Assembly: GCA_027482185.1 (NCBI GenBank)
Contig: JAIXWF010000011.1
Span: 310,001-374,000 of the forward strand
DNA: 64,000 nucleotides
Reading direction: 5' to 3'
Origin: Opitutaceae bacterium
GTDB taxonomy: Bacteria > Verrucomicrobiota > Verrucomicrobiia > Opitutales > Opitutaceae
In this document: positions 13,579-32,656 of the stretch, piece by piece
How the letters are laid out: every line of letters begins with the position of its first letter
How positions within the stretch are numbered: position 1 is the stretch's first letter
Notes under the pieces: generated by a model
What the model saw: the letters and a program-made list of their open reading frames with translations, nothing else
Database searches by the model: none
Told to the model about the DNA's origin: nothing
Program-made: the position numbers and the translations under genes

Positions 13579-14310
13579 CTATTCCGGTTGCGGGGACTGC
13601 GGCGCGAGGAGCGTGAGCTCCGGATCGCGCAGCCATGACGCGGTCTTGGCGCCGGTGAGTTGCGCGGCGACCACCGCCGGCCGCACGCCGATGCCCCGCA
13701 GCGCGAAGGCCGCCGCTTCGCGCACGACCGTCTCCAGATTTCCCCGGTACGACACCGGGGGCCGACCGGCCAAGCGCATCAAACAAATCATGGAGGCGGT
13801 GTGATGCATGAACCAGAATAGGTTTTCATCCGCTCCGTCCGCCGCTTCGCAGTCCCCGGCCGCCCGCGCCGCCGCGAGGCCGGCCCCCAATTGCTTCCGC
13901 AGCATCCGGAACCGGGGCGCCATCAGCACCGTCCGCGCAAACCGGCCGTCCTCCACGAGACTGCGGTAGAGCAGGCGCAGGGACGTGTCGGCGTCGGCCG
14001 CGCGCTTGATGACGATGCTGCGGACGACGAAGTAGACGAGCCGCGCCAGCATTCCGGTGCCGGGGGCGAGCCCCGCGATACGCCGGTAGTCGAGCTCGAA
14101 GCTGTGCGCGCAGTACTCGTAGATCTCGCGGTTGAGCGCTTCCTTGCTGGGGAAATGCCGGAAGAGCAGGGCCTCCGAAATGCCGGCGGCGGCGGCCAGC
14201 TCGCGGGTCGTGACGCCGTCGAAGCCTTTCCGGGCGAGCAACGGCAGCACGGCGTGGGCGATGGCGGTCTTGCGCTGGTCGGCGGGCAGGCGGCGGCGGG
14301 GTCGCGGCAT
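13579..14310 (-). CDS. TetR family transcriptional regulator
   Basis: 243 aa from ATG 14310. The N-terminal helix-turn-helix is clear: VTTRELAAAAGISEALLFRH followed by FPSKEALNREIYEY, the usual TetR DNA-binding layout at residues about 30-70. The remainder is helical and forms the ligand-binding domain, with no family-specific motif I recognise. It is divergent from the TonB receptor gene, and a perfect inverted repeat lies in the shared control region, so autoregulation and control of the receptor are likely. Similar 14-base sites occur at the two other control regions of the nucleoside island. Confidence 0.93.
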   Translation of the reverse strand: MPRPRRRLPADQRKTAIAHAVLPLLARKGFDGVTTRELAAAAGISEALLFRHFPSKEALNREIYEYCAHSFELDYRRIAGLAPGTGMLARLVYFVVRSIVIKRAADADTSLRLLYRSLVEDGRFARTVLMAPRFRMLRKQLGAGLAAARAAGDCEAADGADENLFWFMHHTASMICLMRLAGRPPVSYRGNLETVVREAAAFALRGIGVRPAVVAAQLTGAKTASWLRDPELTLLAPQSPQPE

Positions 14311-14382
14311 GGTCGAAAAAGGGGTCCGTTCAGGCTGACCGGTGGCCCCGCGGCGCGGCAAAACATTTCGGCGGCCCGCCGC

Positions 14383-14398
14383 TAGTAAGCGTTTACTA
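14383..14398. promoter_or_regulatory. Candidate TetR operator (perfect 6-4-6 palindrome)
   Basis: TAGTAA-GCGT-TTACTA is a perfect inverted repeat in an otherwise GC-rich control region. It lies 72-87 bases upstream of the TetR start and 60-75 bases upstream of the TonB receptor start. Size, symmetry and position are those of a TetR operator. The 14-base core AGTAAGCGTTTACT recurs in related form at 18772 and 29938. Confidence 0.72.
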
Positions 14399-14458
14399 AC
14401 TTTATTCCCGTCCCCGGGACGGCGGCACGTGAAATGCTTTCCCGCCGCACCCACCACC

Positions 14459-16954
14459 ATGAAATCCGTTCCCGCGAAAGTCTGGCGTCCGGCGCTCGCC
14501 GCCGTGCTGCTGTCCGCTCCCGCCGCCTTCGGCCAGCCGGCCGCCGGCGAGCCCATCACGAAACTCGAGAAGTTCGTCCTCGACGAGAAGACCGTCGATC
14601 CCGTCGGCGTCATCCCCAACGCCCCGGCCGACTCCGTCTTCGGCATCGGCCTCAAGTCGATCGACACCCCGCGCTCCATCAGCGTGGTCACCGCGGAGAT
14701 GATCGACCTCTTCGACATCGACGACATCAACGACCTCGTCGCCCTCGCCGCCGGCACCTACACGAGCTCCTTCTTCGGCGTCGCCGGCGCCCTCGATATC
14801 CGCGGCGCCCCCGGCGAGACGTTCTTCCGCGGCATGAAGCGGATCAAGAACCCGGGCAATTTCCCGACCCCGATCGGCGCCTCCGACCGCATCGACATCG
14901 TCAAGGGCCCGCCCTCGCCGATCTTCGGCCCCGGCCCCATCGGCGGCTACCTCAACTTCATCCCCAAGTCCGCCCGCGCCTCCACCGGCCGCTACCTCGG
15001 CAAGCCCACCGGCAAACTCACCGCCACCCTCGGCGCCTGGGACAAACGCGTCGCCACCGCCGAGGTCGGCGGCCCCGCCCCGCTCGCCGGCAAGAAAGGC
15101 GGCTACTACGCCTACATCCTGACCGAGAACTCCGGCAGCTTCTACGACAACAGCTTCCAGGACCAATTCATCCTGCAGACTTCGTTCGACTACGATCTCA
15201 CGGATTCGGTCCGGCTCCAGTTCGGCGAACAGTACCACTACTACGCCGGCACCGAAAACGCCGGCTGGAACCGCATCTCGCAGAACCTGATCGACAACCA
15301 CGTCTACATCACGGGCAGCCCGCCCAGCGTCGACACCGACGGCGACGGCCGCAACAGCGCCGCCGAACTCGCCGCCGCCGGCCTGACGGTCCTGAACTTC
15401 GCCATCGCCAACAAGCCCTACGGCAACACGAACCCGGCCGCGCCGAACGCGTTCTACGCGCTGCTCAATCCCGGCACCACGAAGCTCGAGCGCAACCAGG
15501 TCCTGATTGCCGAGGAAGACCTCGCCGACTCCAAGAGCTTCGGCGCCTTCGTCGACGTCACCAAGACGTTCCGCAACGGCGCGACGCTGACGAACAAGAT
15601 GTTTTTCGACTACCTCGACCGCTTCAAATACGCCGCCTACGGCTTCTCGCAGAAGCAGGAAGCGACGACTTTCGAGAACAAGCTCGTCGGCGAGTTCTCC
15701 TCGGGCACCACCGAAGGTTTCAAGGCCAGCAACGCCGTCGCCGCCTCCTACTACTTCAACCACGCCAACGGCCGCAGCGACACCTCGAGCGAGATCTTCG
15801 AGCGCCGCGACATCTCCAAACCGTCGACTTCGATCGACAAGATGCACCACGCCGCGCTCCGCCCCGACCTCAAGCCTTGGAACAACGACATCACGTCGAA
15901 GTACACGGACCTCAGCCTCGGTTTCGTCTCCAATCTGAGCTGGAAGGATCGCACCCATCTCGTGCTCGGCGGCCGCGTCGACTACATCCCGAAGATCACC
16001 TCCAAGCAGAACGGCATCGGCGCCCCGCTCGTGCGCCCCGCCCCCCTGCCCGGCCGCGTGCAGTTCGCCCGCGGCGAAGTGGTCGAGGGCGACGACAAGG
16101 ACACCTCGTGGAACGTCAGTCTTTCCCAGAACCTGATCCGCAATTCCGGCAACATCGACGAACTGACGGTGTACGGCACCCGCGCGCGCCAGGCCCTCCT
16201 GAACTCCGGCCAGGCCGGCGAAGTCGTCCCGGGCATCGTGATCTCCGGCGCCCTCAACGGCACCAACCTCAAGGAGGCCGGCTTCAAGACCTCCCTCTTC
16301 AAGGGCAAACTCTTCGCCTCCGTCGCGCTCTACGAACAGGAACGCGTGGGCGTGTCCGACGGCGCCGTCGACACCACCGTGACCTCGACCAAGGGCCGCG
16401 GCACCGAACTCGAGGTGCGCTGGGTCCCGGTCAAGGAGTTCACCCTCTCCCTCGCCGCCAACTGGCAGAAGACGGTCTACAACCCGCCGCTCGTCCTCCA
16501 GCCCTCCGGCCTCTTCTCCGTCAACGCCGGCACGCAATGGGGCAATCCCGCCATCACCGGCGTCCCCGGCGCCAATTCGTACGGCGGCACCGTCTTCTCC
16601 GTCGTGCCCGCGGCCCTCGCTTCGACCGATTTCCACGAGCGCGCCGGCGTGCCCGACAAGGTCGTCAGCCTCACGTCCTCGTACCAGTTCGCCAAGCACT
16701 TCACCGCCACGCTGAGCGCGACCTACCAGGCCTCCGTCGCCGCCGACCGCTTCAAGTCGGTCATTCTGCCCTCGGCCACGGTCCTCAACGGCTCCCTCAC
16801 CTACCACGTCGGCGATTGGGGCTTCAAAGTCTCCGTCACCAACATCACCGACGAATGGTACTACCGTTCGAACTTCCCCGACATCTTCGGCGGCGCGGTG
16901 GTGCTCCCGATGCCGGAACGCGGCTACGAGTTCAGCGCTTCGTTCAAGTTCTGA
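14459..16954 (+). CDS. TonB-dependent outer-membrane receptor
   Basis: 831 aa from ATG 14459 with a signal peptide (ALAAVLLSAPAAFGQ). The plug domain starts directly after it (about residues 40-190), with DTPRSISVVTAEMIDLF, LDIRGAPGETFFRG and RIDIVKGPPSPIFGPG, the last being the usual plug-barrel hinge. The rest is a beta-barrel rich in aromatic alternating strands and ends in SASFKF, the terminal-Phe barrel signature. No STN domain, so no trans-membrane sigma signalling is expected. The family usually imports siderophores, cobalamin or sugars. Here the gene opens a purine-nucleoside island and shares a palindromic operator with a TetR gene, so a nucleoside or nucleic-acid-derived substrate is possible (inference). 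Confidence 0.92.
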   Translation: MKSVPAKVWRPALAAVLLSAPAAFGQPAAGEPITKLEKFVLDEKTVDPVGVIPNAPADSVFGIGLKSIDTPRSISVVTAEMIDLFDIDDINDLVALAAGTYTSSFFGVAGALDIRGAPGETFFRGMKRIKNPGNFPTPIGASDRIDIVKGPPSPIFGPGPIGGYLNFIPKSARASTGRYLGKPTGKLTATLGAWDKRVATAEVGGPAPLAGKKGGYYAYILTENSGSFYDNSFQDQFILQTSFDYDLTDSVRLQFGEQYHYYAGTENAGWNRISQNLIDNHVYITGSPPSVDTDGDGRNSAAELAAAGLTVLNFAIANKPYGNTNPAAPNAFYALLNPGTTKLERNQVLIAEEDLADSKSFGAFVDVTKTFRNGATLTNKMFFDYLDRFKYAAYGFSQKQEATTFENKLVGEFSSGTTEGFKASNAVAASYYFNHANGRSDTSSEIFERRDISKPSTSIDKMHHAALRPDLKPWNNDITSKYTDLSLGFVSNLSWKDRTHLVLGGRVDYIPKITSKQNGIGAPLVRPAPLPGRVQFARGEVVEGDDKDTSWNVSLSQNLIRNSGNIDELTVYGTRARQALLNSGQAGEVVPGIVISGALNGTNLKEAGFKTSLFKGKLFASVALYEQERVGVSDGAVDTTVTSTKGRGTELEVRWVPVKEFTLSLAANWQKTVYNPPLVLQPSGLFSVNAGTQWGNPAITGVPGANSYGGTVFSVVPAALASTDFHERAGVPDKVVSLTSSYQFAKHFTATLSATYQASVAADRFKSVILPSATVLNGSLTYHVGDWGFKVSVTNITDEWYYRSNFPDIFGGAVVLPMPERGYEFSASFKF

Positions 16955-16981
16955 CCCGCGGCGCCCAAGTTCCTCCCTTCG

Positions 16982-17010
16982 AGACCGGCCTTCGCGGCCG
17001 GTCTTTTTTT
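16982..17010 (+). terminator. Rho-independent terminator of the TonB receptor gene
   Basis: AGACCGGCC, loop TTCGC, GGCCGGTCT forms a perfect 9-bp stem followed by seven T residues, 27 bases after the stop codon. Canonical form. Confidence 0.92.
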
Positions 17011-17012
17011 GC

Positions 17013-17055
17013 GTAGCCCGGCGCTTCAGCCCGCGTAGCCCGGCGCTTTAGCCCG
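17013..17055. repeat. Two direct REP-like units
   Basis: GTAGCCCGGCGCTTCAGCCCG (17013-17033, described by its ends) and a second copy differing only by C to T (17035-17055) follow the terminator. They match one arm of the palindrome at 23452-23511 beside the RAYT gene. The likely interpretation is REP elements mobilised by that transposase family. Confidence 0.65.
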
Positions 17056-17266
17056 GGTTCTGAGTGGTCAGCATTCAGCCGTCAGCTCTCAGCATTCAGC
17101 AACCAAAGTTGACCCCACCGCCTTCCGCCGTACGCCCACCGCGATCCGGCCCGCGCATCCCCGCCGCGAAGCCGCCCGGCAACCCGCGGCCCGCGTTCCG
17201 CGCTTCACTTCAGCTTAGAGCTTAAAGCTTACCGCTTACAGCTCCCAGCTCTCCGCTTCGCATCTC
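17056..17266. repeat. Low-complexity intergenic word repeats
   Basis: No gene is supported between the REP units and the end of the deaminase gene. The stretch contains reiterated CAGCATTCAGC / GTCAGCTCTCAGCATTCAGC words (about 17069-17100). Nearer 17210-17265 there are AGCTTAGAGCTTAAAGCTTA / CAGCTCCCAGCTCT words. Such reiterations look like decayed tandem or dispersed repeats. Confidence 0.5.
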
Positions 17267-18688
17267 TCACATCTTCCACGTCCGCTTCGCATACGGGCTC
17301 GGTTCGGCTTTCACGGTCTCGAGCGTCTTGCGCCAATCGGCGCCGAGCATCTTCGCCGCGAAAGCCGCGACCGCCGCCTCGTACTCCGCAAGCAATTTCG
17401 CCTTCACCGGCGCCGGCAGGAACGCGTACTCGAGGCTCGCGCGCCCGAGGGAAACGGTCTCGTCCCAGGTCAGCGCAAAGGTCCGCACCGCCGTGTAGTA
17501 CTCGTCGGTCATGTTCGAATGCCACATGCCGCGGTCGTCCGTGTTGAGGCACACGGGAATGCCGAAACGCAGATACTCGGGAAACGGATGCACCGTCACG
17601 TCCGGCGTGTATTCGAGCAGCTGGTTGCTGACCAAATTGATTTCGACGAGGAATCGGTTGGCCCGCATCAGCAGCATCGTGTCGGGGTCGGTGATCAGAT
17701 TGACGCCGTGGCCGATGCGCGTCGCGCCGAGCAGCAGGGTGTCGCGCACGTGGGCGTTGGGTTCGTCGACTTCGCCGGCGTGGATCGAAATGCCGATGCC
17801 CGGATACTGCCGCCGCATCGCGCGGTAGGTCTCGAGAAAACGGCGGGGGAAGCCTTTGTCGTTGTCCTCGCGGCCGGCCATGTTGATGCCGACCCAGCGG
17901 TCGCGGTGCGCGTCGAGAAACGCGTAAGTCCGCCCGATCTCCGCCTCGGCGATGGGCGCAAACCGCAGCACCGTGCTGAGAAACCGCACCGTCACCCCCG
18001 TCGCCACCGCATCCGGCTGCGCGAGCCGCGCCTCGTAGCGTTTCGCCATCTCCTCCGGCGGCAGCACCTTGCCGTTCTGGTCCTGCATGCCGAACGCCGG
18101 CGCCTGGAACTCGAGGTAACGCAGCCCCTCGGCCCCGAAACGCTTCATGTTTTCCACGAGCAGCTCCGGCACCGTGTGCGCGTCGAGAATCAGTTCGTTC
18201 AACCGGGCCCAGGTGAATTCGAAAAACTCATCGCGGCCCTCGCCGGGCTGGTCGAGGACCACGCCCGACATCCAGGCCGCCTTCTCCTCGGCGGTGAAGT
18301 CACGCAGCGCCTTGAACTCGGCCTTCACACCCGCCGGGAGTTTGTCGTAGCTCGAACCGCGGATCGTCACGCCGAGCATGTGGTCGAGGTTGCGGCCGCG
18401 CCAATTGAGCCCGGAGGTGCCCGCATTCGCAAACCGGGTGCGGGCGTAAAACACCTGCCCGCCGTTGCGTTGCGGATCCGTCGCGATCGCCCACCAGACC
18501 TCCGGCCAGCCCGCGCCCCCGAGGTGGTTGTGCAGGTCGCCGCCCTTCGGCAACGCCCACAGCAGCGCGTAGAGTTCGGCCGGCGAGGCCTCCCGGCGGA
18601 TGGCGGCAAAGCGCTCGGCCGCGGTTTCGGCCGCAGGGGCGGCGACGGCGGTCAACCCGGCGAACAGGCAGCAAAGTCGGAATATCAT
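17267..18688 (-). CDS. Exported adenosine deaminase (ADGF-like), paralogue 1
   Basis: 473 aa from ATG 18688 with a signal peptide (FRLCCLFAGLTAVAAPAAE). All hallmarks of the metal-dependent adenosine deaminase barrel are present. These are the HNH zinc pair (His53, His55) in KGGDLHNHL, SIHAGE with the third His ligand and catalytic Glu, RIGHGVNL, and NTDD with the terminal Asp ligand. Length and the inserted N-terminal region match extracellular ADGF-type enzymes better than the 330-residue cytoplasmic Add. Expected reaction: adenosine (or deoxyadenosine) to inosine plus ammonia in the periplasm. Divergent from the ABC importer operon. Confidence 0.92.
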   Translation of the reverse strand: MIFRLCCLFAGLTAVAAPAAETAAERFAAIRREASPAELYALLWALPKGGDLHNHLGGAGWPEVWWAIATDPQRNGGQVFYARTRFANAGTSGLNWRGRNLDHMLGVTIRGSSYDKLPAGVKAEFKALRDFTAEEKAAWMSGVVLDQPGEGRDEFFEFTWARLNELILDAHTVPELLVENMKRFGAEGLRYLEFQAPAFGMQDQNGKVLPPEEMAKRYEARLAQPDAVATGVTVRFLSTVLRFAPIAEAEIGRTYAFLDAHRDRWVGINMAGREDNDKGFPRRFLETYRAMRRQYPGIGISIHAGEVDEPNAHVRDTLLLGATRIGHGVNLITDPDTMLLMRANRFLVEINLVSNQLLEYTPDVTVHPFPEYLRFGIPVCLNTDDRGMWHSNMTDEYYTAVRTFALTWDETVSLGRASLEYAFLPAPVKAKLLAEYEAAVAAFAAKMLGADWRKTLETVKAEPSPYAKRTWKM

Positions 18689-18707
18689 GCCTCCGGGCAG
18701 CACCGCA

Positions 18708-18732
18708 CGTGCCAGCGGCCGCCGCTGGCACG
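18708..18732. promoter_or_regulatory. Inverted repeat between the deaminase and ABC operons
   Basis: CGTGCCAGCGG, loop CCG, CCGCTGGCACG is a perfect 11-bp stem in the 66-base gap between divergent starts. It could be an operator or the leader hairpin of either transcript. There is no T-run, so a terminator is unlikely. Confidence 0.45.
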
Positions 18733-18754
18733 GGATTCGCTCTCCCTCCGGCGG

Positions 18755-19501
18755 GTGATTTCCCTGAGCCAAGTAAGCAAACACTATACTAACGGCCCCG
18801 CCGCCGTGGCCGGCGCGGACCTGGCGGTCGCCCGCGGCGAGCTCGTGAGCCTGCTCGGACCCTCCGGCTGCGGTAAAAGCACCCTCCTCCGCATCGCGGC
18901 CGGGCTCGAGGTCCCCGACGCCGGCACGGCCGAAATCGACGGCCTCGCCCCGGCCGAAGCGTGCCGGCGCGGCGCGCTCGGCGTCGCCTTCCAGCGCCCC
19001 GCGCTCGTGCCTTCCCGCACCGCCCTCGAAAATGTCGCGTTGACCCTCGAGCTCCTGCGGCCGGCGGCGGCGCTCGACCCGCGCGAATTGCTGGAAACCT
19101 TCGGGCTGGGGGCGTTTTTGCATCATTATCCGCACCAACTGTCCGGCGGCATGCAGCAACGCGTCAACATCGCGTGCGCGCTGGTCCACGGGCCCGCCGT
19201 GCTGTTGCTCGACGAGCCCTTCGGCGCCCTCGACGAACTCACCCGCGCCGACCTGACCGCCTGGCTCCGCGGCGTGCTCGCGCGCACCGGCCAGACCGTC
19301 CTGCTTGTCACCCACAGCGTCGAGGAAGCCGTCGCCCTCTCCCACCGCATCGCGATGCTCTCACCCCGCCCGGGCCGGATCCGCGCCGTCCTCGACGTCC
19401 CGGCCGCCGCCCGCACCGACGATTGGACCGCTCCCGCCGCCATCGCCATGGTCGCCGCGGTGCGCCGGCAGCTGCGCGAGTTCGTGCCCGCCGCCGCATG
19501 A
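18755..19501 (+). CDS. ABC transporter ATP-binding protein (SsuB/TauB type)
   Basis: 248 aa from GTG 18755, chosen because it places the A-loop VSKHY at residues 7-11, the usual distance from the Walker A motif GPSGCGKST (35-43). Signature LSGGMQQRV, Walker B VLLLDEPFGALD and switch His in VTHSVEEA follow in order. The subfamily is that of nitrate/sulfonate/taurine-type importers. The stop overlaps the permease start as ATGA. Codons 7-13 are unusually AT-rich (GTA, AAA, TAT, ACT) and coincide with the second AGTAAG-N5-ACT site, so this stretch may also be an operator. Context suggests a purine nucleoside or related base as substrate. Confidence 0.92.
   Translation: MISLSQVSKHYTNGPAAVAGADLAVARGELVSLLGPSGCGKSTLLRIAAGLEVPDAGTAEIDGLAPAEACRRGALGVAFQRPALVPSRTALENVALTLELLRPAAALDPRELLETFGLGAFLHHYPHQLSGGMQQRVNIACALVHGPAVLLLDEPFGALDELTRADLTAWLRGVLARTGQTVLLVTHSVEEAVALSHRIAMLSPRPGRIRAVLDVPAAARTDDWTAPAAIAMVAAVRRQLREFVPAAA
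18772..18794. promoter_or_regulatory. Candidate TetR-type operator inside the ATPase reading frame
   Basis: AGTAAGCAAACACT (18772-18785) shares AGTAAG and the final ACT with the palindrome core at 14384 and the site at 29938. Read on the minus strand, the stretch TTAGTATAGTGTTTGCTTAC resembles the site upstream of hupE over about 24 bases. It lies 84-97 bases upstream of the deaminase start and 17-30 bases inside the ATPase gene. Confidence 0.45.
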
Positions 19502-20238
19502 AACCGTGGCTGCCAGTCCTCGGCGTCGCCGCTCTCGCCCCGCTCGCCTGGCAGGCGGCGATCTGGATCTTCGCGCCCCCGCCGGCCCTGCTGCCGTCGC
19601 CCGCGCTGGTCGCCGGCGTGCTCTGGTCCGAGCGCCGCGAGCTCGCCGGCCACACCTTGGTCACGTTGGGCGAGGCCGTCGGCGGCTACGCCCTCGCCAA
19701 CCTGCTCGCCCTCGGGCTCGCGTTCCTGTTCTACCGGCTCCGGACCGCCGAGGCCGTCCTCGCCCCGTGGCTCGTGGTCGCGAAGAACATCCCGTTTCCC
19801 GCCCTCGCCAGCATTCTCGTCGTGCTCCTCGGCGACACCCTCGCCCCCAAGCTCGTCGTCGTCGTCCTCGTCACGTTCTTCCCGATTCTCGCCAACGTGA
19901 GCCAGGGCCTGCGCTCCGCCGACCCCGTGCTCGTCGACCGCCTGCGCACCCTGCACGCCACGCCGGGCCAGATCTTCCGCAAGGTCGCCTGGCCGGCCGC
20001 GCTCCCCGCCTATTTCGCGGCCCACGAGATTGCGTTCACCGGCAGCATCATCGCCGCGATCGCCGCGGAATGGCTCTTCGCCCAACGCGGCCTCGGCTAC
20101 CTCATCGTGCACGCGACCACGCAATTCCGCACCGACCGCCTCTTCGCCGTCACGCTGATCGCCAGCGCCCTCGCGATCGCGGCCTACGGGCTGGTGCGCC
20201 TCGCCGCCGCGCGCGTCCTGCGCTGGCGCCGTCTCTGA
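19498..20238 (+). CDS. ABC transporter permease (SsuC type)
   Basis: 246 aa from ATG 19498, which overlaps the ATPase stop by four bases. About six hydrophobic segments are visible, starting with LPVLGVAALAPLAWQAAIWI. The cytoplasmic EAA-like loop is DRLRTLHATPGQIFRKVAWP, the contact site for the ATPase. This is the single-permease type that normally works as a homodimer with a SsuB-like ATPase and an NMT1/SsuA-like binding protein, both encoded in this operon. Confidence 0.9.
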   Translation: MKPWLPVLGVAALAPLAWQAAIWIFAPPPALLPSPALVAGVLWSERRELAGHTLVTLGEAVGGYALANLLALGLAFLFYRLRTAEAVLAPWLVVAKNIPFPALASILVVLLGDTLAPKLVVVVLVTFFPILANVSQGLRSADPVLVDRLRTLHATPGQIFRKVAWPAALPAYFAAHEIAFTGSIIAAIAAEWLFAQRGLGYLIVHATTQFRTDRLFAVTLIASALAIAAYGLVRLAAARVLRWRRL

Positions 20239-20243
20239 TTTAC

Positions 20244-21242
20244 ATGTCCCTGTTTCCCGGCCTGTCATCCGCCTCGCCCCTCCCCGTGCGCGTGGTGCTG
20301 CTCAGCACCTACCGCCGCGGTCTCCAACCGTGGATCGATCGCGAGGGCCTGCGCGGTCCCGTGCCCATCGGAAACGGCGGCGAACTCTTTCTCAATGACC
20401 GCGGCTGCGCCGGGCTCGTCACCGGCATGGGCGCCATCAACGCCACCGCCACGACCCTGGCCTTCGGCTTCGATGCGCGCTTCGACGTCGCGTCGGCGTA
20501 CTGGTTCATCGCCGGGCTCGGCGGCATCGATCCCGAGGACGCCGGCCTCGGCAGCGCGGTCTGGACGGAGTGGATCGTCGACGGCGACCTCGTCCACGAA
20601 ATCGACGCCCGCGAAATCCCGCCCGACTGGTCCACCGGCCGGCTCGTGCTCAACACCGCGCGCCCCTTCGCCCCGCCGCCGCCGCGCGCCGGCACCGCCT
20701 TCGGCGTCCGCGAGGTCTACCGCCTCAATCCGGCCCTGCGCGACTGGGCGCTGCGCCTCACCGCCGCCACGCCATTGGCCGATACCCCCGCGGTGGCCGA
20801 CTTCCGCCGGACCTACGCGGACAGTTTCCCCGTCGCCGCGCAGCCGCCGCGCGTGCTCGCCGGCGACATCATCGCCGCCAGCACCTATTGGCACGGCGCC
20901 AAACTCAACGACTGGGCCAACCGCTGGGTCGATTTCTGGACCGAGGGCCGCGGCAAGATGGTAATCACCACCATGGAGGACGCCGGCCGCGCCGCCGCCG
21001 TCCAGACGCTCGCCGCCGCCGGCCGCGCCGATTTCTCGCGGCTGCTCTGCCTGCGCACCGGCTGCAATTTTTCCCGCCCGCCGGCCGGGCTCGACGTCGT
21101 CCGCAGCCTCGGCGGCGACACCGGCCACGATCCGTTCATCGGCGAAGGTCCCTGCCTCGAAAACATGATCCGCGTCGGCGGCCCCGTCCTCGACGCGCTC
21201 CTCGCCGACTGGCCCCGCTACGCCCGCGAGACCCCGGCCTGA
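20244..21242 (+). CDS. NUP family purine nucleoside permease-like protein, no signal peptide
   Basis: 332 aa from ATG 20244, five bases after the permease stop. The sequence matches the purine nucleoside permease (NUP) family: VTGMGAINATATTLAFGFD, a GLGGIDPEDAGLGSAVW segment, the WIVDGDLVHEIDAREIP run, and ASTYWHGAKLNDWANRWVDF. It is closely related to the protein at 22382-23455, but it lacks the N-terminal signal and is shorter. Family knowledge: the fungal member is implicated in purine nucleoside transport, and the fold resembles nucleoside phosphorylases, so an enzymatic role (cytoplasmic nucleoside cleavage) should be considered. Being inside the ABC operon supports a purine role. Confidence 0.87.
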   Translation: MSLFPGLSSASPLPVRVVLLSTYRRGLQPWIDREGLRGPVPIGNGGELFLNDRGCAGLVTGMGAINATATTLAFGFDARFDVASAYWFIAGLGGIDPEDAGLGSAVWTEWIVDGDLVHEIDAREIPPDWSTGRLVLNTARPFAPPPPRAGTAFGVREVYRLNPALRDWALRLTAATPLADTPAVADFRRTYADSFPVAAQPPRVLAGDIIAASTYWHGAKLNDWANRWVDFWTEGRGKMVITTMEDAGRAAAVQTLAAAGRADFSRLLCLRTGCNFSRPPAGLDVVRSLGGDTGHDPFIGEGPCLENMIRVGGPVLDALLADWPRYARETPA

Positions 21243-22375: not shown

Positions 22376-22381
22376 TTTCCC

Positions 22382-23455
22382 ATGAAACCAACCCGTCTCT
22401 TCCTCTGTTTGGTCGCCGCGGCCCTGGTCGCCCGCGCCGCCGAAAAACCGATTCCCGTCAAAGCCGTCATCGTCGTCACCTACGAGGACGGCGCCTACAC
22501 CGGCGACAAACCCGGCGGCCTCCAGCCGTGGGCCGAAGGTGAAAAACTCGACCGGATCGTGCCCGTGCCCGGCACGTTCCGCGGCGACATCGTGATGAAC
22601 GCCGACGGCGTCGTCGGCCTCGTCTCCGGCCGCGGCCCCATCAACGGCGCCAGCTCCGTCATGGCCCTCGGCCTCGACCCGCGTTTCGATTTCTCGAAGG
22701 CGTACTGGTTCCTCACCGCGCTCACCGGCTTCGACCCGCACGACGCCTCCCTCGCCTCCGTGATGTGGGGCCAATGGATCGTCGACGGCGACTGGGCCCA
22801 CGAAGTCGACGCGCGCGAATTGCCGCAGGACTGGGACACGACCTACTTCCCGGTCCACGCCACCTCGCCCGACCAGAAACCCGCCGCCCGCGGCTCGACG
22901 GAACTGCTCGCCGTGCGCGAGGCCTACCGGCTCAACCCCGCGCTGTCGGCCTGGGCGTATCAATTGACCAAGGACACACCGCTCGCCGACACGCCCGGCA
23001 TGGCGGAGTACCGGAAACGGTTCGTCGGTTTCCCCAACGCCCAGCGCCCGCCGTTCGTGCTGCAAGGTTCGAATCTCGCCGCCGGCACGTATTGGCACGG
23101 GGTGAAGCGCACGGATTGGGCCAACCGCTGGGTCAAACTTTGGACCGACGGCGCCGGCAACTTCGTCTCGACGTCGACACCGGACGGCGGCCGCATCGGC
23201 GCCCTCACCGCGCTCGCCCGCGCCGGCAAAGTCGACCTGCAACGCGTCATGCAGATGCACGCCGCGATGAACTTCTCGATGCAGGCGCCCGGCATGACGG
23301 CTCTCGAGAGCGTGAACTACGACACCCCGGGCCGCCCGCACCCCGGCATGGCGCCCGCGCTCGTTTCGTCGTACGCCGTCGGCAGCCGCGTGCTCCGCGA
23401 GCTCGTGCGCAACTGGGACCGCTATCGGGACGAGATCCCCGGCAAGACCCCGTAG
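22382..23455 (+). CDS. NUP family purine nucleoside permease-like protein, exported
   Basis: 357 aa with a signal peptide (TRLFLCLVAAALVARAAE). It shares the family hallmarks with the protein at 20244: GDIVMNADGVVGLVSGRGPI, YWFLTALTGFDPHDASLASV, WIVDGDWAHEVDARELP and AGTYWHGVKRTDWANRWVKL. The signal indicates a periplasmic location, in contrast to its paralogue. It begins six bases after the binding-protein stop, so it is the last gene of the five-gene operon. Its TAG stop is inside the left arm of the 23452-23511 palindrome. Confidence 0.88.
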   Translation: MKPTRLFLCLVAAALVARAAEKPIPVKAVIVVTYEDGAYTGDKPGGLQPWAEGEKLDRIVPVPGTFRGDIVMNADGVVGLVSGRGPINGASSVMALGLDPRFDFSKAYWFLTALTGFDPHDASLASVMWGQWIVDGDWAHEVDARELPQDWDTTYFPVHATSPDQKPAARGSTELLAVREAYRLNPALSAWAYQLTKDTPLADTPGMAEYRKRFVGFPNAQRPPFVLQGSNLAAGTYWHGVKRTDWANRWVKLWTDGAGNFVSTSTPDGGRIGALTALARAGKVDLQRVMQMHAAMNFSMQAPGMTALESVNYDTPGRPHPGMAPALVSSYAVGSRVLRELVRNWDRYRDEIPGKTP

Positions 23456-23511
23456 CCCGGGCCTTCAGCCCGGGTGCAGGGGAAACATCCCGGGCTGAAG
23501 GCCCGGGCTAC
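23452..23511. repeat. REP palindrome between convergent genes
   Basis: A perfect 23-bp inverted repeat (left arm 23452-23474 beginning GTAGCCCGGGCCTTCAGCCC, right arm 23489-23511) separated by 14 bases. The stop codon of the NUP gene lies in the left arm, and the stop codon of the RAYT frame lies in the right arm. It shares the GTAGCCCGG...CTTCAGCCCG core with the two units at 17013-17055. It could also act as a bidirectional terminator. Confidence 0.85.
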
Positions 23512-24115
23512 GGAATCCGCCACGGCCACGCGGATGCATCTCGGACCAATCCGGCCTTGACCGGGTTCTGGACAATATAGGCCGCGATGCGCGCGCGCTC
23601 GGCCTCGTGGCGCAGCCATCGGTCGAACCACGACTCCTGCCAGAACGCTCCTGTTCGGCCGAGGACGAGATTGGCCGCGCGCGCAACGCGACCCTTCCAG
23701 GCCGCGAGCATTCGTCGCAAGGGGACGATTTCGCTCCGCGTAGGCTCGACGATGAAATGAACATGGTTGGGCATCGCGACCGCTGCGGAGACACGCCAGC
23801 CGGTGCGGATTTCCAAATCCGCCCAGTGCGCCATGACAATTCGCGCCGCGTCGGCAGTATTGAAAGGAGAGAAACCGAAACCTTGATCGACGTATTTCTC
23901 GCAGATCGCAAAGGACGCACGTTGCAGCGTCACACTTTCCGGTGACCCAGGGGGATCTCCGCGAGGCAGAGATGGACTTCCCGCAGGCGAGCGACGACGT
24001 CCGGCGGCAGCGAACCGGCGCAACGAACGGTGACAAAGTGGGGCCGACCCGCGACTTCCCAGTGGGGCAGACGGTGATGCCAGCGTTCGCGGGTATCGCT
24101 CAAGGTGCCGGACAT
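23508..24115 (-). pseudogene. RAYT (REP-associated Y1 transposase), frameshifted
   Basis: The first part is read from ATG 24115 (MSGTLSDTRERWHHRLPHWE, then FVTVRCAGSLPPDVVARLRE) and meets a stop at 23930. The remainder continues in another frame (TLQRASFAICEKYVDQGFGF, then the HUH motif MPNHVHFIVEP, the catalytic-Tyr region FWQESWFDRWLRHEAERARI and YIVQNPVKAGLV) to 23508. Adding one base to the G5 run at 23950-23954 (C5 in the coding strand) would join both parts in phase as AEIPPGSPESVTLQRAS. So this is either a one-base inactivating deletion, a homopolymer sequencing error, or slippage. The family processes REP palindromes by single-strand transposition; one such palindrome abuts the gene. 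Confidence 0.85.
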
Positions 24116-24184
24116 GTCGCGAACCTGCGAAGCAGTCGCGCGGCAACAAGGGGCAATGAGACGAAATCAGATGAACGGCCCGGG

Positions 24185-25288
24185 CTACCTCGCCGCCTCC
24201 CGCACTGCCGCGAGATACACCGCGCGATCCGCTTCCGGCAACCACGCGATCCGAAAACTGTTTTCCGCCAACGTCACGATCTCCGCCTTCGTCAATCCGA
24301 CCGTGCGGTGCACGCCGAGCATCAGGTCGCCGACGAGCAAGCCGCGCATCAGGCCGGGGTCGTCGGAGTTGATCGTGACCAGCAGCCGCAGCTCGAGCAT
24401 GCGCTTCACGGCCTTCGCCCGGAATTCGAGGCGCCCGGGAATATCCGCTTCCATCAACGTCGGGCAAACCGTCAGCCCGATGCCCCGCGCCTTCACCGCC
24501 GCGATCAACGCGGGGTCGTCGAGCACGTTGATGCCGTGGTCGATGCGCTCCACCTTGAGTTCGTCGAGGCAACCCCAGTGGTGCGCGAGCGTGTTCGGCT
24601 GGTTCACGTCGCAGTGCGAGGTCGCCCGCAGCCCGAGCGAACGCGCCCGGGCGAACACGCCGGCGAACTTCCGCGGAAAGTCTTTCTCCTCCGGATTGTC
24701 GAGCCCGACGCCGAGGATGCGCCGGTGCCACGGTTTGCTCGCTTCCAAGATCGCGAGCGCGGATTCCACGGAACGGTCGCGGTTGAAACACATGATGTAC
24801 TCGACGCGCACGCCGAATTCGTTCCGCGCCGCCGCCTGCGCCGCGAGCAACCCGGCGAACACCGTCGCGAGCGGAATGCCGCGCTCCGTGTGCATCTGCG
24901 GATCGAAGAACATTTCCGTATAAACAATCCCCTGCGCCTTGGCCCGCCGCAGGTGCGCGACCGCCACCTCCCGGAAGTCCGCCTCCGTGCGGATCACCGA
25001 GAGCAGCTCCTCGTAAACTTCGATGAACGACTTCAGGTCCCGGCCGTCGCGTTGCCTTTGGCGCACCGCCGCCGCCGTCGCATAGCGCCCCGGCAGGGAA
25101 TTCCGTTTTGCCAATTCGAGGTAATGCTCCGGTTCCAACGTGCCCTCGAAGTGCACGTGCAATTCCGCTTTCGGAATCGACCAGATGAACGCCTTGGTGG
25201 CCGCCTCATCCGCCGCCGATGCCGCGGCCTGCACCGCCGCCGCGAAGGCAATCACCGCCGCCCAAAGCCCAAGCCCCGTCCGCTTCAT
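24185..25288 (-). CDS. Exported adenosine deaminase-family protein, divergent paralogue
   Basis: 367 aa from ATG 25288, overlapping the upstream stop as ATGA, with an Ala-rich signal peptide. His44 and His46 (ELHVHFEGT), His225, His251 (ERIDHGINVL) and Asp309/Asp310 (NSDD) keep the metal-site pattern. The normal HAGE motif is replaced by HCDVNQ, so Val228 stands where the catalytic Glu is expected, with Asp227 next to it. The protein is nearer in length to cytoplasmic Add/adenine deaminases than the other two paralogues. Substrate and even activity are therefore uncertain; a modified adenine or other N6-substituted purine is possible (inference). Last gene of a four-gene minus-strand operon. 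Confidence 0.83.
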   Translation of the reverse strand: MKRTGLGLWAAVIAFAAAVQAAASAADEAATKAFIWSIPKAELHVHFEGTLEPEHYLELAKRNSLPGRYATAAAVRQRQRDGRDLKSFIEVYEELLSVIRTEADFREVAVAHLRRAKAQGIVYTEMFFDPQMHTERGIPLATVFAGLLAAQAAARNEFGVRVEYIMCFNRDRSVESALAILEASKPWHRRILGVGLDNPEEKDFPRKFAGVFARARSLGLRATSHCDVNQPNTLAHHWGCLDELKVERIDHGINVLDDPALIAAVKARGIGLTVCPTLMEADIPGRLEFRAKAVKRMLELRLLVTINSDDPGLMRGLLVGDLMLGVHRTVGLTKAEIVTLAENSFRIAWLPEADRAVYLAAVREAAR

Positions 25289-26724
25289 GGAAACGTCAGC
25301 CCGAACTGCCGCGCCGCATAGCCGAAGGTCACGGGTTTCGTGCCGGCGAGGGCGTCGCGCCAATTCCCCGCCGCCAATTTCCTTTCGAAGGCATCCAGCT
25401 CCGCGTCGTGCGCCGCGATCAGCCGCGCTTTGGTCGCCGGATCGAGAAACGCGTGCGCCAAGCTCGCGCGGCCGATTTGCCGGATCTCCGACCAGGCCAG
25501 ACGGTACCGCGTCACCGCCACGTAGTACTCGTCCGTCATCGTCGAGTGCCACCAGCCGCGGTCGTCGGTGTTGAGGCAAACGGGAATGCCGAGCCGCAGG
25601 TATTCGGGAAACGGATGCACCGCCAGGTCCGGCGTGTATTCGAGAAGGTGGTTGCTGATCAGGTTGATCTCCACGAGCCAACTCCGATTCCGCATCAGCA
25701 GCAGCGTATCCGGGTCCTTGATCAGCGTCACGGCATGCCCGATCCGGCTCGCCCCGAGCAGCAGCGTGTCGCGCACGTGCGTGTTGGGTCCGTCCATTTC
25801 GCCGGCGTGGATCGAAATTCCGATGTCGGCATGGCTGCGGCGCTGCTCGCGGAACGTGGTGAGGAAGCGGCTCGGGTAGCCGGTGCCGCGTTCCTCGATG
25901 CCGGCGAGATTGATCCCGACCCAACGGCCGCGGTGCCGATCGAGAAACTTGAAGATCCGGACGACCTGCGCTTCCGCGTCGGCAATGTACCGGTTGCCCG
26001 TGATCTGGAATCGCACCTCGACGCCCGTGGCTTTCGCGTCCGGCCGCTGTAACGCCGCCTCGTAGATCGCGGCGGCTTCGTCTTCGGGAATCGGTTTCCC
26101 TTCCGGGGTCTGCTGCGTGAACGGCGACGCCTGCAGTTCCAAGTACCGCACGCCCTCCGCCCCGTAGAGCTTCATCGTTTCGACGAGCAGCTCCGTCATC
26201 ACGACGGGGTCCTGCCCGAGGTGCGCCAGCCGCTGCCGCGGGGCGGCGAAAAACGTGTACCGCCCCTCGCCGGGCCGGTCGATCTGGTACTGCGAGATCC
26301 ACGCCGCGCGTTCCTCGGCCGTAAGCTCGCCGAGCGGTTTCCAGTCCCCGCGCGTCGCCTCGGGCAAAGCCCGCCACGCCGCGGCCCGGATCGTCTCGAA
26401 CGGATACACCGGCTCCGGCGCCGCAAGGTTGAAGGTCCCGCCGCCGCGCACGCGGGTGTAGTAGTCGGCACGGCCCTTGAGCGCCGGATCGGTTGCCGCC
26501 CGGAACCACTGCTCGGGAAAATAGGAACCGGGCAGATGGTTGTGCAGATCGCCGCCCTTCGGCAGCGCGTACAGCAGGGTGTACAATTCGCGGGCCGAGG
26601 CGCCGGCGCGGATCTCGTTCCACCGCGCTTCGAAATCGGCGCGCGCGGGCACCGCCGCCACGATCGCCACCGCACCCGCGGCGAGCGCCGCGGCCCAGCC
26701 GCGGACCGAGCGATGCGTTACCAT
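25285..26724 (-). CDS. Exported adenosine deaminase (ADGF-like), paralogue 2
   Basis: 479 aa from ATG 26724 with a signal peptide (WAAALAAGAVAIVAAVPARA). It is co-linear with paralogue 1 over its whole length. Shared elements are LPKGGDLHNHL with His61 and His63, ISIHAGE with the third His and catalytic Glu, RIGHAVTL (Ala in place of the Gly of paralogue 1), and NTDDRGWWHSTMTDEYY. It starts seven bases inside the 3' end of the adenine deaminase-like gene, so the two are translationally coupled. Expected role: periplasmic deamination of adenosine-type nucleosides. The similarity to paralogue 1 indicates duplication within the island. Confidence 0.91.
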   Translation of the reverse strand: MVTHRSVRGWAAALAAGAVAIVAAVPARADFEARWNEIRAGASARELYTLLYALPKGGDLHNHLPGSYFPEQWFRAATDPALKGRADYYTRVRGGGTFNLAAPEPVYPFETIRAAAWRALPEATRGDWKPLGELTAEERAAWISQYQIDRPGEGRYTFFAAPRQRLAHLGQDPVVMTELLVETMKLYGAEGVRYLELQASPFTQQTPEGKPIPEDEAAAIYEAALQRPDAKATGVEVRFQITGNRYIADAEAQVVRIFKFLDRHRGRWVGINLAGIEERGTGYPSRFLTTFREQRRSHADIGISIHAGEMDGPNTHVRDTLLLGASRIGHAVTLIKDPDTLLLMRNRSWLVEINLISNHLLEYTPDLAVHPFPEYLRLGIPVCLNTDDRGWWHSTMTDEYYVAVTRYRLAWSEIRQIGRASLAHAFLDPATKARLIAAHDAELDAFERKLAAGNWRDALAGTKPVTFGYAARQFGLTFP

Positions 26725-28643
26725 ACGACGGGATGGCGGTTGCCGTTGGTCACGTTCACGAACCCGACCGGGTCCGCGTCGTTCGGCGCCACCAACACCC
26801 AACGCCACGGCGTGCAGGTCAGGAAAACAACCGTGAGGTACTTCGGGAAACCCGGCGGCAAGGGCCGCGCGCTCGTCGGCGACGCCGGCATCCACTCCAC
26901 CTTGTCGGCGGCGTCGAGCAGCGCCTCCATCTCCTTCGCCGCCTCGGCCGCCGGCCGCTGCGTGAAGATGCCGCCGATCTCGTAGCGGATGCGCGCGGTG
27001 ACTTTGCCGTTGTGCACGAGCACCCAGCCGCCGCCCATCTTCGCGAGTTCGTTCGCCGCCAGCGCCATCGCGCTGTCGCTCGTGCCGAACACCCAGATGT
27101 TGTGGATGTCGTGCATGTACGACGAGGCGAGCGCGCTGTCCGCCGACATCGGGCCGGCATGCCGCCAGAACATCTTGGATACGCCTTTGCCGTGGAAGCG
27201 GTCGACGACCGCCACCTTGGAAATGTAGCGCTTCAAATCGCGCTGCACCTTGCCGTCGACGACCGGCAATTCGGCCGTGAGGTAGTCGTCCTTGAACCAG
27301 AACGGCTCGAGCAGCGCCGCCGTCGCGGTCTTGCGGTCGGGCGCCGGCGCCGCGATCTCGAAATCCGCCGCCGTCAACGTGCGGCCGATCTTGATCGTGT
27401 TGTGCGCCCACGCCGGGTACTCGATCTTCGGCACCGGCAGGAGAAACTTGCCGTTCTCCGCGGCCAATTGCCCGTCCGCGAAGACGCGGCCGATCTTCAC
27501 GAGCTTCGGATCTTCCTTGAGCAAGATGATGTCCGCCGCGCGGCCCGGGGCGATCGAGCCCACGAGGTGCTCGATGTGCCAGTGCCGCGCGGGATAGTAG
27601 CTCGCCATCGCGTACGCGGCTTCAACCGGTGCGCCGGCCCCGATGGCCAGCCGCACGTTGAAGTCCATCGTGCCGTTCTTCAACGAATCGTAGGCGTCGC
27701 GGTCGTCGGTCGTGATCGCGAGGTTCGACCAGTCGTTGAGTTTCTCCTGCACCAGCCGCGGGACCAGCGCCGGGATCGTACTCGGCGTCATCTGCACCGT
27801 CACGCCGCGCCGCAGTTTGTCCCAGCCTTCCTGCGCCTGGCGCACGGAGTGGTCGGACGAAAGACCGGCGGCGGAGAACGCGTTGATGGTGTCGAAATCC
27901 GTCAGGCCCGAGCCGTGGCCCTCGACCACGCCGCGCGCGTCCCACGTCGCCTGGATCACCTGCCACATGCGCGAGTAGCCGGGGTTCGCGGGGTTCGCGA
28001 CCGCGGGCCAGTCCATGACCTCGTCGAGACCGAGGACGCGCAGGTCTTTGGCCATGTTTTCGCGGATTTCCTTGTAGCCGTAGTATCCGCCGCCGAGCTC
28101 GAAGGCCGTCGGCGGCGTCGCGGAACTCAGCGCCACGAAATGCTTGAACGGCGAGCCGGCGTCGCGGGCTTTGAGCCAGAACTCGACGTTGTGCTCGCCG
28201 TCGACGTTGCCGAATTCATGCGTGCCGTCGACGGTCCACGTGTTGCCCTGCGCGATGACGAGCGCGGCCTCGTATTCCGGCGTGATGTGGGTGCTTTCGA
28301 TGTGCTTGTGGGATTCGCCGAAGCCGGGCACGGCCCACTCGCCCTTCGCGTCGACGATGCGGTCGCAGCGCCCGGGCCATTTGCCGACGGGGCCGACCCA
28401 CGCGATGCGCGGGCCCTTGATCACGATGTCCTGCGCCGGCTCCCATTGGAGCGTGAAAACGTTCAGCACGGTCGCGCCGCGCACGATGAGGTCGGCGGGT
28501 TCGCGGCCGAGGGCGACCTGCACGAGTTGCTGGCGCAGCTTCGTCTCGGCGTTGAAGACAAAGGGCTCGGCGGCCGGGAGCCGCAGCGTCGCGAGGCCGA
28601 GCAAGGCGGCCGCGACAGCGAGGAGACGGAGGTTCGATTTCAT
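26718..28643 (-). CDS. Exported adenine deaminase-like amidohydrolase
   Basis: 641 aa from ATG 28643 with a signal peptide (LRLLAVAAALLGLATLRLPA). It follows the adenine deaminase (COG1001) pattern: ADLIVRGATVLNVFTLQWEP, then the metal-binding PGFGESHKHIESTHITPEYE (His112, His114), a middle GHGSGLTDFDTINAF, ITTDDRDA, the composite-barrel GSIAPGRAADIILL, and a C-terminal region with VAVVDRFHGKG. The family normally uses iron or manganese to convert adenine to hypoxanthine. The signal peptide is unusual, since characterised Ade enzymes are cytoplasmic. It lies 14 bases after hupE and overlaps the next deaminase by seven bases. Confidence 0.87.
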   Translation of the reverse strand: MKSNLRLLAVAAALLGLATLRLPAAEPFVFNAETKLRQQLVQVALGREPADLIVRGATVLNVFTLQWEPAQDIVIKGPRIAWVGPVGKWPGRCDRIVDAKGEWAVPGFGESHKHIESTHITPEYEAALVIAQGNTWTVDGTHEFGNVDGEHNVEFWLKARDAGSPFKHFVALSSATPPTAFELGGGYYGYKEIRENMAKDLRVLGLDEVMDWPAVANPANPGYSRMWQVIQATWDARGVVEGHGSGLTDFDTINAFSAAGLSSDHSVRQAQEGWDKLRRGVTVQMTPSTIPALVPRLVQEKLNDWSNLAITTDDRDAYDSLKNGTMDFNVRLAIGAGAPVEAAYAMASYYPARHWHIEHLVGSIAPGRAADIILLKEDPKLVKIGRVFADGQLAAENGKFLLPVPKIEYPAWAHNTIKIGRTLTAADFEIAAPAPDRKTATAALLEPFWFKDDYLTAELPVVDGKVQRDLKRYISKVAVVDRFHGKGVSKMFWRHAGPMSADSALASSYMHDIHNIWVFGTSDSAMALAANELAKMGGGWVLVHNGKVTARIRYEIGGIFTQRPAAEAAKEMEALLDAADKVEWMPASPTSARPLPPGFPKYLTVVFLTCTPWRWVLVAPNDADPVGFVNVTNGNRHPVVW

Positions 28644-28657
28644 AAAGCTTAAGGAGG

Positions 28658-29929
28658 TCACCCGAAGAGCCGCTGCCCGGTCCAAGCCAGGCCCACGGCC
28701 GCGATCAGCCCGCAGGCCGGGATCACGATGCGCGGTCGGTACCAGGTCCGGTTCCGCCACCAGCCCACGGCGCCGAAGGCCAGGGCGATCACGGTGAGCT
28801 GGCCGAAATCGACCCCGAAGTTGAACGCCAGCAGCGCGGTCAGGAATTCCCGCCGCGGCAACGGCACCTCGGCCAGGCTGCTCGCAAACCCGAGGCCGTG
28901 CAGGAGCCCGAAGCCGAAGACCACCGCCAGCCGCGCCGAGGAAAGCTTCGGCCGGAAGATGTTTTCCAGGGCAACGCAGGCGATCGACAACGCGATCAAC
29001 GGTTCGACGATCCGCGACGGCACCGCCACGAGGCCGTACGCCGCAAGTCCGAGCGTCGTCGTGTGCGCGACGGTGAAGGCCGTGGTCTGCGTCAGCAGCG
29101 GCCGCCACGCCGGCGCCAGCAGGAACAGTCCGAGCACAAACAGGATATGGTCCGCGCCGCGCGGCAGGATATGCAGAAACCCGAGCCAGAGATACTGTCC
29201 GGCGGTTTCGAGGTGCTGGGCGATGCGCAGCGCGGTCGGGGAGACATTCGCCGCCGCGTCGGCGGTGGCCGCCGGCACAGATGCGGCTGCCGGTGCCGGA
29301 GCGGCCGCAAGGCCCGCCGCGGCCGGCGGCGGCACCAGATCGCCCAACACGGATTCGGGCACGGTAAACTCCCGGCTCGCCGTCCCCGGCAGCTCGACCC
29401 AGCGCGTGATCGCCACCTCCCGGGCCGGGGCGACGCACGACAGCGCCACCGGATACTCGAGCGGCGCCTGCGCGGCCGTGGCCAGCGCCAGTACCTTGGC
29501 GCCGGTCGGCCACACCGCCGCCAGTTCGAAGGTCGTCATCGCGGCCACGTTGGGATCCGCCACCTCGCCGGGCGCGACCTGCGGCAAGCGCGCCCGCAGG
29601 AACCGCAACGGCACGCGCACGCCGTCGGCCTGCATCGCCAGCCAGCCGTCCAGCCGCGGGCCCAGTTCGCCGGTGATGCGCTCCCGGCCGGCCGCATCCG
29701 CCGCGAGCAGAGCCGCGTAGCCCGCCGGCCCGCCCAGCGCCTGGGTCAGATCGAGGTCGACCGTCACCCGCAGCTCCGGCCCGGCCCCGAACGCCACGGC
29801 CACGCGCGTCATGTTCAGCAGGTGCGCCTCCGCCGCGGCCGGGAAGGCCAAGGCCAACCCCGGCAGCCAACGCAACAGCAGGCGGGCGATTCGGCGGCGC
29901 ACGGGCCCGCAGAGCAGCCGCAGTGCCAT
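28658..29929 (-). CDS. HupE/UreJ-like membrane permease with periplasmic N-terminal domain
   Basis: 423 aa from ATG 29929. A signal sequence (LLRWLPGLALAFPAAAEA) precedes a soluble domain of roughly 200 residues. The C-terminal half has about six membrane segments with the HupE/UreJ pattern: FLHILPRGADHILFVLGLFL, TTAFTVAHTTTLGLA, IALSIACVALENI, FGLLHGLGFASSL and FNFGVDFGQL. The conserved His and Asp residues in these segments are thought to bind nickel or cobalt in the family. It is the first gene of an operon with three metal-dependent deaminase-type enzymes, so metal supply to their periplasmic active sites is a reasonable inference. An AGTAAG-N5-ACT site lies just upstream of the start. 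Confidence 0.86.
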   Translation of the reverse strand: MALRLLCGPVRRRIARLLLRWLPGLALAFPAAAEAHLLNMTRVAVAFGAGPELRVTVDLDLTQALGGPAGYAALLAADAAGRERITGELGPRLDGWLAMQADGVRVPLRFLRARLPQVAPGEVADPNVAAMTTFELAAVWPTGAKVLALATAAQAPLEYPVALSCVAPAREVAITRWVELPGTASREFTVPESVLGDLVPPPAAAGLAAAPAPAAASVPAATADAAANVSPTALRIAQHLETAGQYLWLGFLHILPRGADHILFVLGLFLLAPAWRPLLTQTTAFTVAHTTTLGLAAYGLVAVPSRIVEPLIALSIACVALENIFRPKLSSARLAVVFGFGLLHGLGFASSLAEVPLPRREFLTALLAFNFGVDFGQLTVIALAFGAVGWWRNRTWYRPRIVIPACGLIAAVGLAWTGQRLFG

Positions 29930-29937: not shown

Positions 29938-29951
29938 AGTAAGTGAATACT
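29938..29951. promoter_or_regulatory. Candidate TetR-type operator upstream of hupE
   Basis: AGTAAGTGAATACT shares 11 of 14 bases with AGTAAGCGTTTACT at 14384. It ends nine bases before the hupE start, in the ribosome-binding-site region, where a bound repressor would block transcription or initiation. An overlapping TACTTTC/AGTAGAGT element extends it on one side, as in the 18772 site. Confidence 0.45.

Positions 29952-30190: not shown

Positions 30191-32656
<2,466 letters not shown>

Follow-up and report, generated by a model that had tools for sequence, protein, structure and literature searches.

An island of exported deaminase-family and NUP proteins in an Opitutaceae genome: a probable lineage-specific purine-nucleoside utilisation locus

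We examined a gene island at positions 13579 to 29929 of a 64,000-nucleotide (nt) stretch, hereafter the window, of contig JAIXWF010000011.1 from an Opitutaceae bacterium (GenBank assembly GCA_027482185.1), in which exported deaminase-family proteins, two members of the NUP family and an ATP-binding cassette (ABC) importer are encoded side by side. An earlier note, made without database searches, had listed twelve contiguous genes here and read them as one unit that deaminates extracellular purine nucleosides outside the cytoplasm and then takes up the products. All twelve were borne out at their coordinates, from the TetR stop at 13579 to the HupE start at 29929, by Pfam matches over cut-off to TetR_N, TonB Plug, A_deaminase (three proteins), ABC_tran, BPD_transp_1, NMT1, NUP (two proteins), Adenine_deam_C with Amidohydro_1 (both in one protein, ADE) and HupE_UreJ_2. 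The named genes are contiguous as claimed, except that one transposase-like open reading frame (ORF), absent from the earlier list, interrupts them.

Strand and spacing suggest five transcription units. A TetR-family regulator (13579..14310, minus strand; PF00440, 53.6 bits) diverges from a TonB-dependent receptor (14459..16954, plus strand; Plug domain PF07715, 40.1 bits), and ADGF1, an A_deaminase protein of ADGF type (17267..18688, minus strand; PF00962, 120.6 bits, with PDB matches), would form the third unit. The fourth, on the plus strand, comprises an SsuB/TauB-like ABC ATPase (18755..19501; PF00005, 104.6 bits, with NCBIfam relatives under their cut-offs; its GTG start was chosen by inspection and the scans used 18758-19501), an ABC permease (19498..20238; PF00528, 87.3 bits), NUP1 (20244..21242), an NMT1/THI5-like substrate-binding protein (SBP) of lipoprotein type (21242..22375; PF09084, 97.6 bits) and NUP2 (22382..23455), the genes overlapping or being separated by gaps of at most 6 bases. 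The joint presence of PF09084, PF00528 and PF00005 upholds the claim of a complete ABC importer. The fifth unit, on the minus strand and with one 14-base gap followed by overlaps, runs from a HupE/UreJ-like membrane protein with an exported N-terminal part (28658..29929; PF13795, 156 bits) through the adenine-deaminase-like ADE (26718..28643; PF13382, 103.6 bits; a match to 3nqb) and the ADGF-type A_deaminase protein ADGF3 (25285..26724; PF00962, 114.6 bits) to a further A_deaminase protein, ADA2 (24185..25288; PF00962, 205.9 bits). The interrupting ORF, resembling repetitive extragenic palindrome (REP)-associated tyrosine transposases (23508..23939, minus strand; NF047646, 79.3 bits against a cut-off of 80), is an apparent insertion between the ends of NUP2 and ADA2, and hence between the two operons, beside a perfect 25-nt REP-like inverted repeat at 23450-23513. 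Imperfect copies related to this repeat were seen near 17011-17057. Neither RNA families over the gathering score nor tRNAs were found in the 64-kb window.

Export was predicted by hydropathy and inspection, with no dedicated signal-peptide program. Sec-type N-termini were assigned to ADGF1, ADGF3, ADA2, ADE and NUP2 and a lipobox to the SBP, with neither on NUP1, in agreement with the claim that one NUP protein is exported and the other is not.

ADGF1 and ADGF3 carry the HxH, HAGE, GH and TDD motifs as read from the sequence, the last three being also seen for ADGF1 in the alignment with its PDB match. Both fall below the equivalog cut-off of 216.55 bits for TIGR01430 adenosine deaminase (120.8 and 129.1 bits, respectively), whereas ADA2 exceeds it with 280.6 bits, which counts against ADA2 being catalytically changed. 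The family matches and exported-type N-termini of the three A_deaminase proteins agree with the earlier note, with a reservation for ADA2, which lacks the catalytic glutamate of HAGE, having HCDV in its place (SHCDV in the window and in the two relatives that span the site). Close relatives of ADA2 (E <= 1e-40) occur in 2 of 199 other family genomes. Among the N-termini of ten ADGF relatives, five are of the twin-arginine type (L046, L048, L065, L067 and L157; G, C and L numbers are our labels for genomes, contigs and loci) and the rest are hydrophobic and Sec-like, L043 being the least clear of these. Within one deaminase subfamily the predicted export route therefore varies, from twin-arginine in relatives to Sec-looking in the window ADGF proteins.

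ADE scores 262.5 bits against TIGR01178 adenine deaminase, below the equivalog cut-off of 472.5, and keeps the HKH, THE, GH and TDD motifs of that enzyme, the DHE motif being DHS in the window and L154 and HE in L039, L043 and L153. It belongs to a separate, exported ADE-like branch with PF13382 scores of 106-126 bits, versus at least 162 bits for the canonical kind. This branch is present in 6 of the 103 genomes from the order Opitutales (G000, G004, G032, G047, G078 and G099), all of them NUP-bearing; G011 has a sub-threshold PF13382 match only. The gene adjoins NUP in three of these genomes (G000, G004 and G047), and the N-termini look exported in L039, L043 and L153, less clearly so in L154, and are cut in L155. 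A canonical adenine deaminase with no visible signal accompanies NCS2 permeases in clusters of G030, G032, G048, G064 and G078.

Both NUP proteins exceed the PF06516 cut-off of 27 bits by far (NUP1 285.2, NUP2 309.7). Hydropathy finds no transmembrane segment in NUP1 and only the signal peptide in NUP2, the structure model of NUP1 is compact alpha/beta, and among the structure-match entries listed, 49 of 50 for NUP1 and 50 of 50 for the NUP protein of locus L073 are 5'-methylthioadenosine (MTA), S-adenosylhomocysteine (SAH) or futalosine nucleosidases. Model and hydropathy thus predict a soluble fold like that of MTA/SAH nucleosidase (MTAN), and the earlier view of NUP as an uptake protein found no support: the membrane-permease reading was rejected for NUP1 and NUP2, which by hydropathy have no membrane-spanning segments beyond the NUP2 signal.

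In L073 numbering, three NUP residues are near-invariant among 136 aligned proteins (fetched NUPs only, three short and three duplicate ones left out): E49 in 134, E267 in 135 and R293 in 135. The catalytic residues of MTAN we take to be Glu12, Glu174 and Asp197; a weak hhalign alignment (8% probability) pairs the regions of Glu174 and Asp197 with MED and with the N of LRTASN, and Glu12 was matched to E49 by helix position only. Profile-profile comparison of NUP with PNP_UDP_1 gave probabilities of 5% and 8% (E 0.007 and 0.004) over aligned stretches that make sense. Against the PDB by sequence, NUP2 alone gave one non-significant match and a 24-sequence NUP profile none at E <= 10. NUP1 lacks the GDxPGE loop, and NUP2 has PGG for PGE, TP for ME and H for R. 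A third NUP protein of this genome, encoded on contig C3 (L033), retains E49, E267 and R293 and carries a signal. Three similar exported-looking amidase ORFs (L033:12423-17307, minus strand), two of them Pfam-confirmed, separate this intact NUP from a nearby TonB-receptor match. Another region of C3 encodes an exported-looking MTAN-like PNP_UDP_1 protein (L165; PRK05584, 93.8 bits, below the cut-off of 169) together with a second adenine deaminase, partial TonB matches and two NCS2 permeases.

The earlier note named neighbourhoods in which these genes are not conserved together as one result that would refute its claim of a unit. NUP was found in 27 of the 103 order genomes, and the ADGF subfamily, defined as full-length matches scoring 385 bits or more against ADGF3 (n = 12), in 11, all of which are NUP-bearing. 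A NUP match is found no more than 2.1 kb away from 11 of the 12 ADGF copies (from 9 of 10 if the window's own two are set aside), the twelfth being on a 6.1-kb contig (G063:C240) that showed no NUP match. Of 12 genomes searched for NCS2, 6 have such a permease gene between NUP and ADGF. Across 200 family genomes, NUP is present in 78, ADGF in 54 and both in 51, such that 51 of 54 genomes with ADGF have NUP versus 27 of 146 without it (odds ratio 75, Fisher p 7e-24, uncorrected for relatedness). Physical linkage is less general, 18 of the 56 family ADGF copies lying within 10 kb of a NUP match, a count from which nine short NUP fragments, none on an ADGF-bearing contig, were excluded. The best 80 of 494 NUP loci come from Opitutaceae, metagenome-assembled genomes labelled Bryobacterales or other Acidobacteria, Cytophagales and others, with labels that may be wrong and many loci ending at contig edges; their flanks contain A_deaminase in 22, NCS2 in 19 and TonB in 12, the A_deaminase matches outside Opitutales being mostly 23-32% identical.

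Two complete examples illustrate the association. L176 combines an amidase, two NUPs, NCS2, ADGF, adenine deaminase and TonB, and L179 holds RidA, an NMT1-type SBP with permease and ATPase (read from sequence), an amidase, an amidohydrolase, a pbuX-like permease and an exported-looking SAM hydroxide adenosyltransferase with TonB, NUP, NCS2 and ADGF. The latter SAM_HAT protein (L179:9098-9976, minus strand) is a possible periplasmic source of adenosine. In Opitutales the neighbourhood comparison came out in favour of the earlier note as regards ADGF, NUP and NCS2 and, in part, as regards the adenine deaminase, the TonB receptor and the NMT1 importer. On these neighbourhood results, the unit stands as a recurring association and not as a fixed operon, linkage not being universal.

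We consider it probable that the island is a lineage-specific form of a purine-nucleoside utilisation locus. It is built from known families, in an association that is real and recurring; its function, including substrates, catalytic residues and the order of the steps, we infer throughout. The TonB receptor would admit nucleosides or a larger purine source. Judging by family and motifs, the exported ADGF deaminases would convert adenosine or deoxyadenosine to inosine and the exported adenine-deaminase-like enzyme adenine to hypoxanthine, with ammonia set free in the periplasm. There, too, the N-glycosidic bond would be cut by nucleosidases of MTAN fold, a task of the linked NUP in relatives; in the present genome this cleavage would most likely fall to the intact exported NUP of L033 and the exported MTAN-like protein of L165. 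The base or nucleoside would then be taken up by the NMT1-type ABC importer, in addition to the NCS2 permeases elsewhere in the genome. HupE, which the earlier note had counted in the unit, is a recurrent neighbour of the exported adenine-deaminase-like gene (5 of 6 genomes, with no HupE match in L043), an adjacency that suggests metal handling rather than purine uptake, and it probably serves metal supply. Just past the ADGF gene of L073, ZnuA (by Pfam) and metal-type ABC genes (by sequence reading) at 13868-17897 (minus strand) give a second hint of metal supply.

Several observations weigh against this reading. E49 is missing from both window NUPs, and E267 and R293 are missing from NUP2 as well; sequence profiles barely connect NUP with MTAN; and the best NUP1 relative outside the genome is 50% identical (G080), none near enough for a test of purifying selection having been found among the 200 family genomes. 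NMT1 importers handle many compounds, the TonB receptors encoded near NUP share just 22-34% identity with that of the window, and 38 of the 56 family ADGF copies have no NUP match within 10 kb, many contigs being short and five of these copies sharing a contig with a more distant NUP. The order ABC-PERM-NUP-SBP-NUP was not met with among the fetched loci, though it was not sought as such in every genome. With the predicted catalytic glutamate lost, the best reading of the cytosolic NUP1 and the exported NUP2 is that they are nucleosidases, altered or put to a new use, with a tie to the importer. A bolder extension, in which we place little confidence, is that the NUP family comprises exported MTAN-fold nucleosidases feeding base permeases in at least three phyla and that the two window copies, without that glutamate, serve as nucleoside-binding partners of the importer, one on each side of the membrane.

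The cargo of the importer admits a doubtful alternative, in which it carries another N-heterocycle (a thiamin precursor, cytosine or a barbiturate-like ring) and the locus performs mixed nucleobase or vitamin salvage instead of serving purine nucleosides. The closest solved relatives of the SBP are THI13/THI5 and a thiamin-precursor binding protein, and its best relatives, 33-39% identical, are five copies in G118. In that genome (G118:C12, L172-L175), five NMT1 SBPs of the window subfamily lie among NCS2 permeases with an AtzD-type ring-opening amidohydrolase that passes its NCBIfam cut-off, a cytosine-deaminase-like protein that stays below cut-offs and creatininase-family proteins, the SBPs of L173/L174 being beside the cyanuric-acid-type and cytosine-deaminase-like enzymes. 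This large cluster, which also has three NCS2-type permeases and FAD proteins, is probably an N-heterocycle catabolism island. On the other hand, an NMT1 SBP, permease and ATPase stand alongside NUP, NCS2 and ADGF in L073 and L179, and in the window the importer is flanked by three A_deaminase proteins and an adenine-deaminase-like protein. A nucleobase or nucleoside is the likeliest cargo, and a thiamin-type pyrimidine or other ring less likely.

A shared, candidate regulatory motif bears on whether the transcription units belong together. AGTAAG-N5-ACT occurs three times in the 64 kb against none expected, always on the plus strand: at 14384..14397, a candidate operator in the divergent TetR/TonB intergenic region, at 18772..18785, inside the first ATPase codons and 84 nt upstream of the ADGF1 start, and at 29938..29951, just upstream of the HupE start. 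It was first spotted by eye in these regions and tested afterwards. A longer form has two exact matches in the 6.4-Mb genome, both in the window, and one single-mismatch match elsewhere, compared with one for the reversed control. In an unbiased scan, the three 5' regions had one pattern in common, where 300 shuffles averaged 0.2 and peaked at 4 (none as A/T-rich), and the best 20-mer match between the second and third sites, 16/20, was reached in 8 of 100 shuffles. Given the choice by eye, the moderate unbiased test and the position of the second site in coding sequence, the motif is suggestive only, and co-regulation of the units through it is suggested. The region between the divergent ADGF1 and ABC starts also contains a perfect palindrome, GTGCCAGCGG-N3-CCGCTGGCAC, at 18709-18731, which was rejected as a shared operator, being single-copy in the window.

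It is unlikely, in our view, that chance brought together two or three independent modules (TetR-TonB; ABC-NUP; HupE-ADE-ADGF3-ADA2) that serve different nutrients, leaving the island a mere patchwork. The units are transcriptionally separate by prediction, with the transposase-like ORF between two of them, most family ADGF copies are unlinked to NUP at 10 kb, exported ADE and HupE lie away from NUP in G032, G099 and G078, and the unbiased motif test is just moderately favourable. Yet the same families re-associate across several genera, a motif is common to three 5' regions, and 5 of 8 fetched NUP-unlinked ADGF loci keep NCS2, adenine deaminase, TonB, amidase, RidA or ABC permease genes, the other three keeping none. 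Similarly improbable is that both NUPs of the island are decaying and without a role, so that the deaminases alone matter, a proposal favoured by their lost residues and the intact NUP of L033 but opposed by two full-length frames with strong family scores, most other invariant columns kept and a place in a tightly packed operon.

Beyond the island, a large exported-looking DUF6807-DUF7133-cytochrome c protein (9659-13465, minus strand) adjoins the TetR gene, and a sensor kinase with an ethylene-receptor-type (ETR1_N) N-terminal domain, PAS domains and a receiver domain is encoded at 30191-32656 (plus strand).

A purine-nucleoside utilisation locus of this kind would matter in two respects. 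It offers a testable function for the possibly misnamed NUP family, named as a permease while its fold model, lack of membrane segments and neighbours point to an exported nucleosidase, and it outlines how Opitutales, possibly along with some Acidobacteriota and Cytophagales, could obtain nitrogen and carbon from purine nucleosides outside the cell. At the level of titles and abstract openings, in the part of the matches covered, we found no report of a bacterial NUP gene cluster or of NUP as a nucleosidase. Among known systems, the SusCD-type loci with which Bacteroidetes scavenge ribose and nucleosides, for which no paper stood among those listed in a literature search, likewise couple TonB-dependent uptake to nucleoside cleavage outside the cytoplasm or en route; the present locus differs in its exported deaminases and NUP/MTAN-fold proteins, and in the base permeases of its relatives, and the scan of the proteins encoded at 13579-29929 showed neither SusD nor a sugar kinase. 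MTA/SAH nucleosidase and futalosine hydrolase (PDB 4wkb, 5b7q and 4bmx) share 9-16% identity with NUP, which has a loop insertion before helix 1, and the 24-sequence NUP profile has no detectable match to these structures. Nucleosides of the 7-deaza type would be expected to resist cleavage, and one of them, 5'-methylthiotubercidin, is a bound ligand in the MTAN structure 1nc1. The NUP protein of Candida albicans, named purine nucleoside permease like the window proteins and likened to them here by name, not sequence, is reported as a transporter: it let an adenine-requiring yeast grow on adenosine and gave no toyocamycin sensitivity, from which the authors conclude that it transports adenosine and not toyocamycin (PMC9431476). 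A secreted nucleosidase releasing adenine for uptake would also explain this result if 7-deaza nucleosides stay uncleaved, a reinterpretation that is ours and not the authors'. The animal ADGF adenosine deaminases are likewise secreted A_deaminase proteins, those of the window being bacterial, with ADGF1 scoring 85.9 bits against TIGR01431, well under the cut-off of 315. Finally, the Ca. Izemoplasmatales loci are tied to xanthine dehydrogenase, with no NUP, TonB receptor or NMT1 importer mentioned in the portion of that report at hand, and resemble the present locus in clustering purine deaminases for the use of nucleic-acid purines (PMC8289736).

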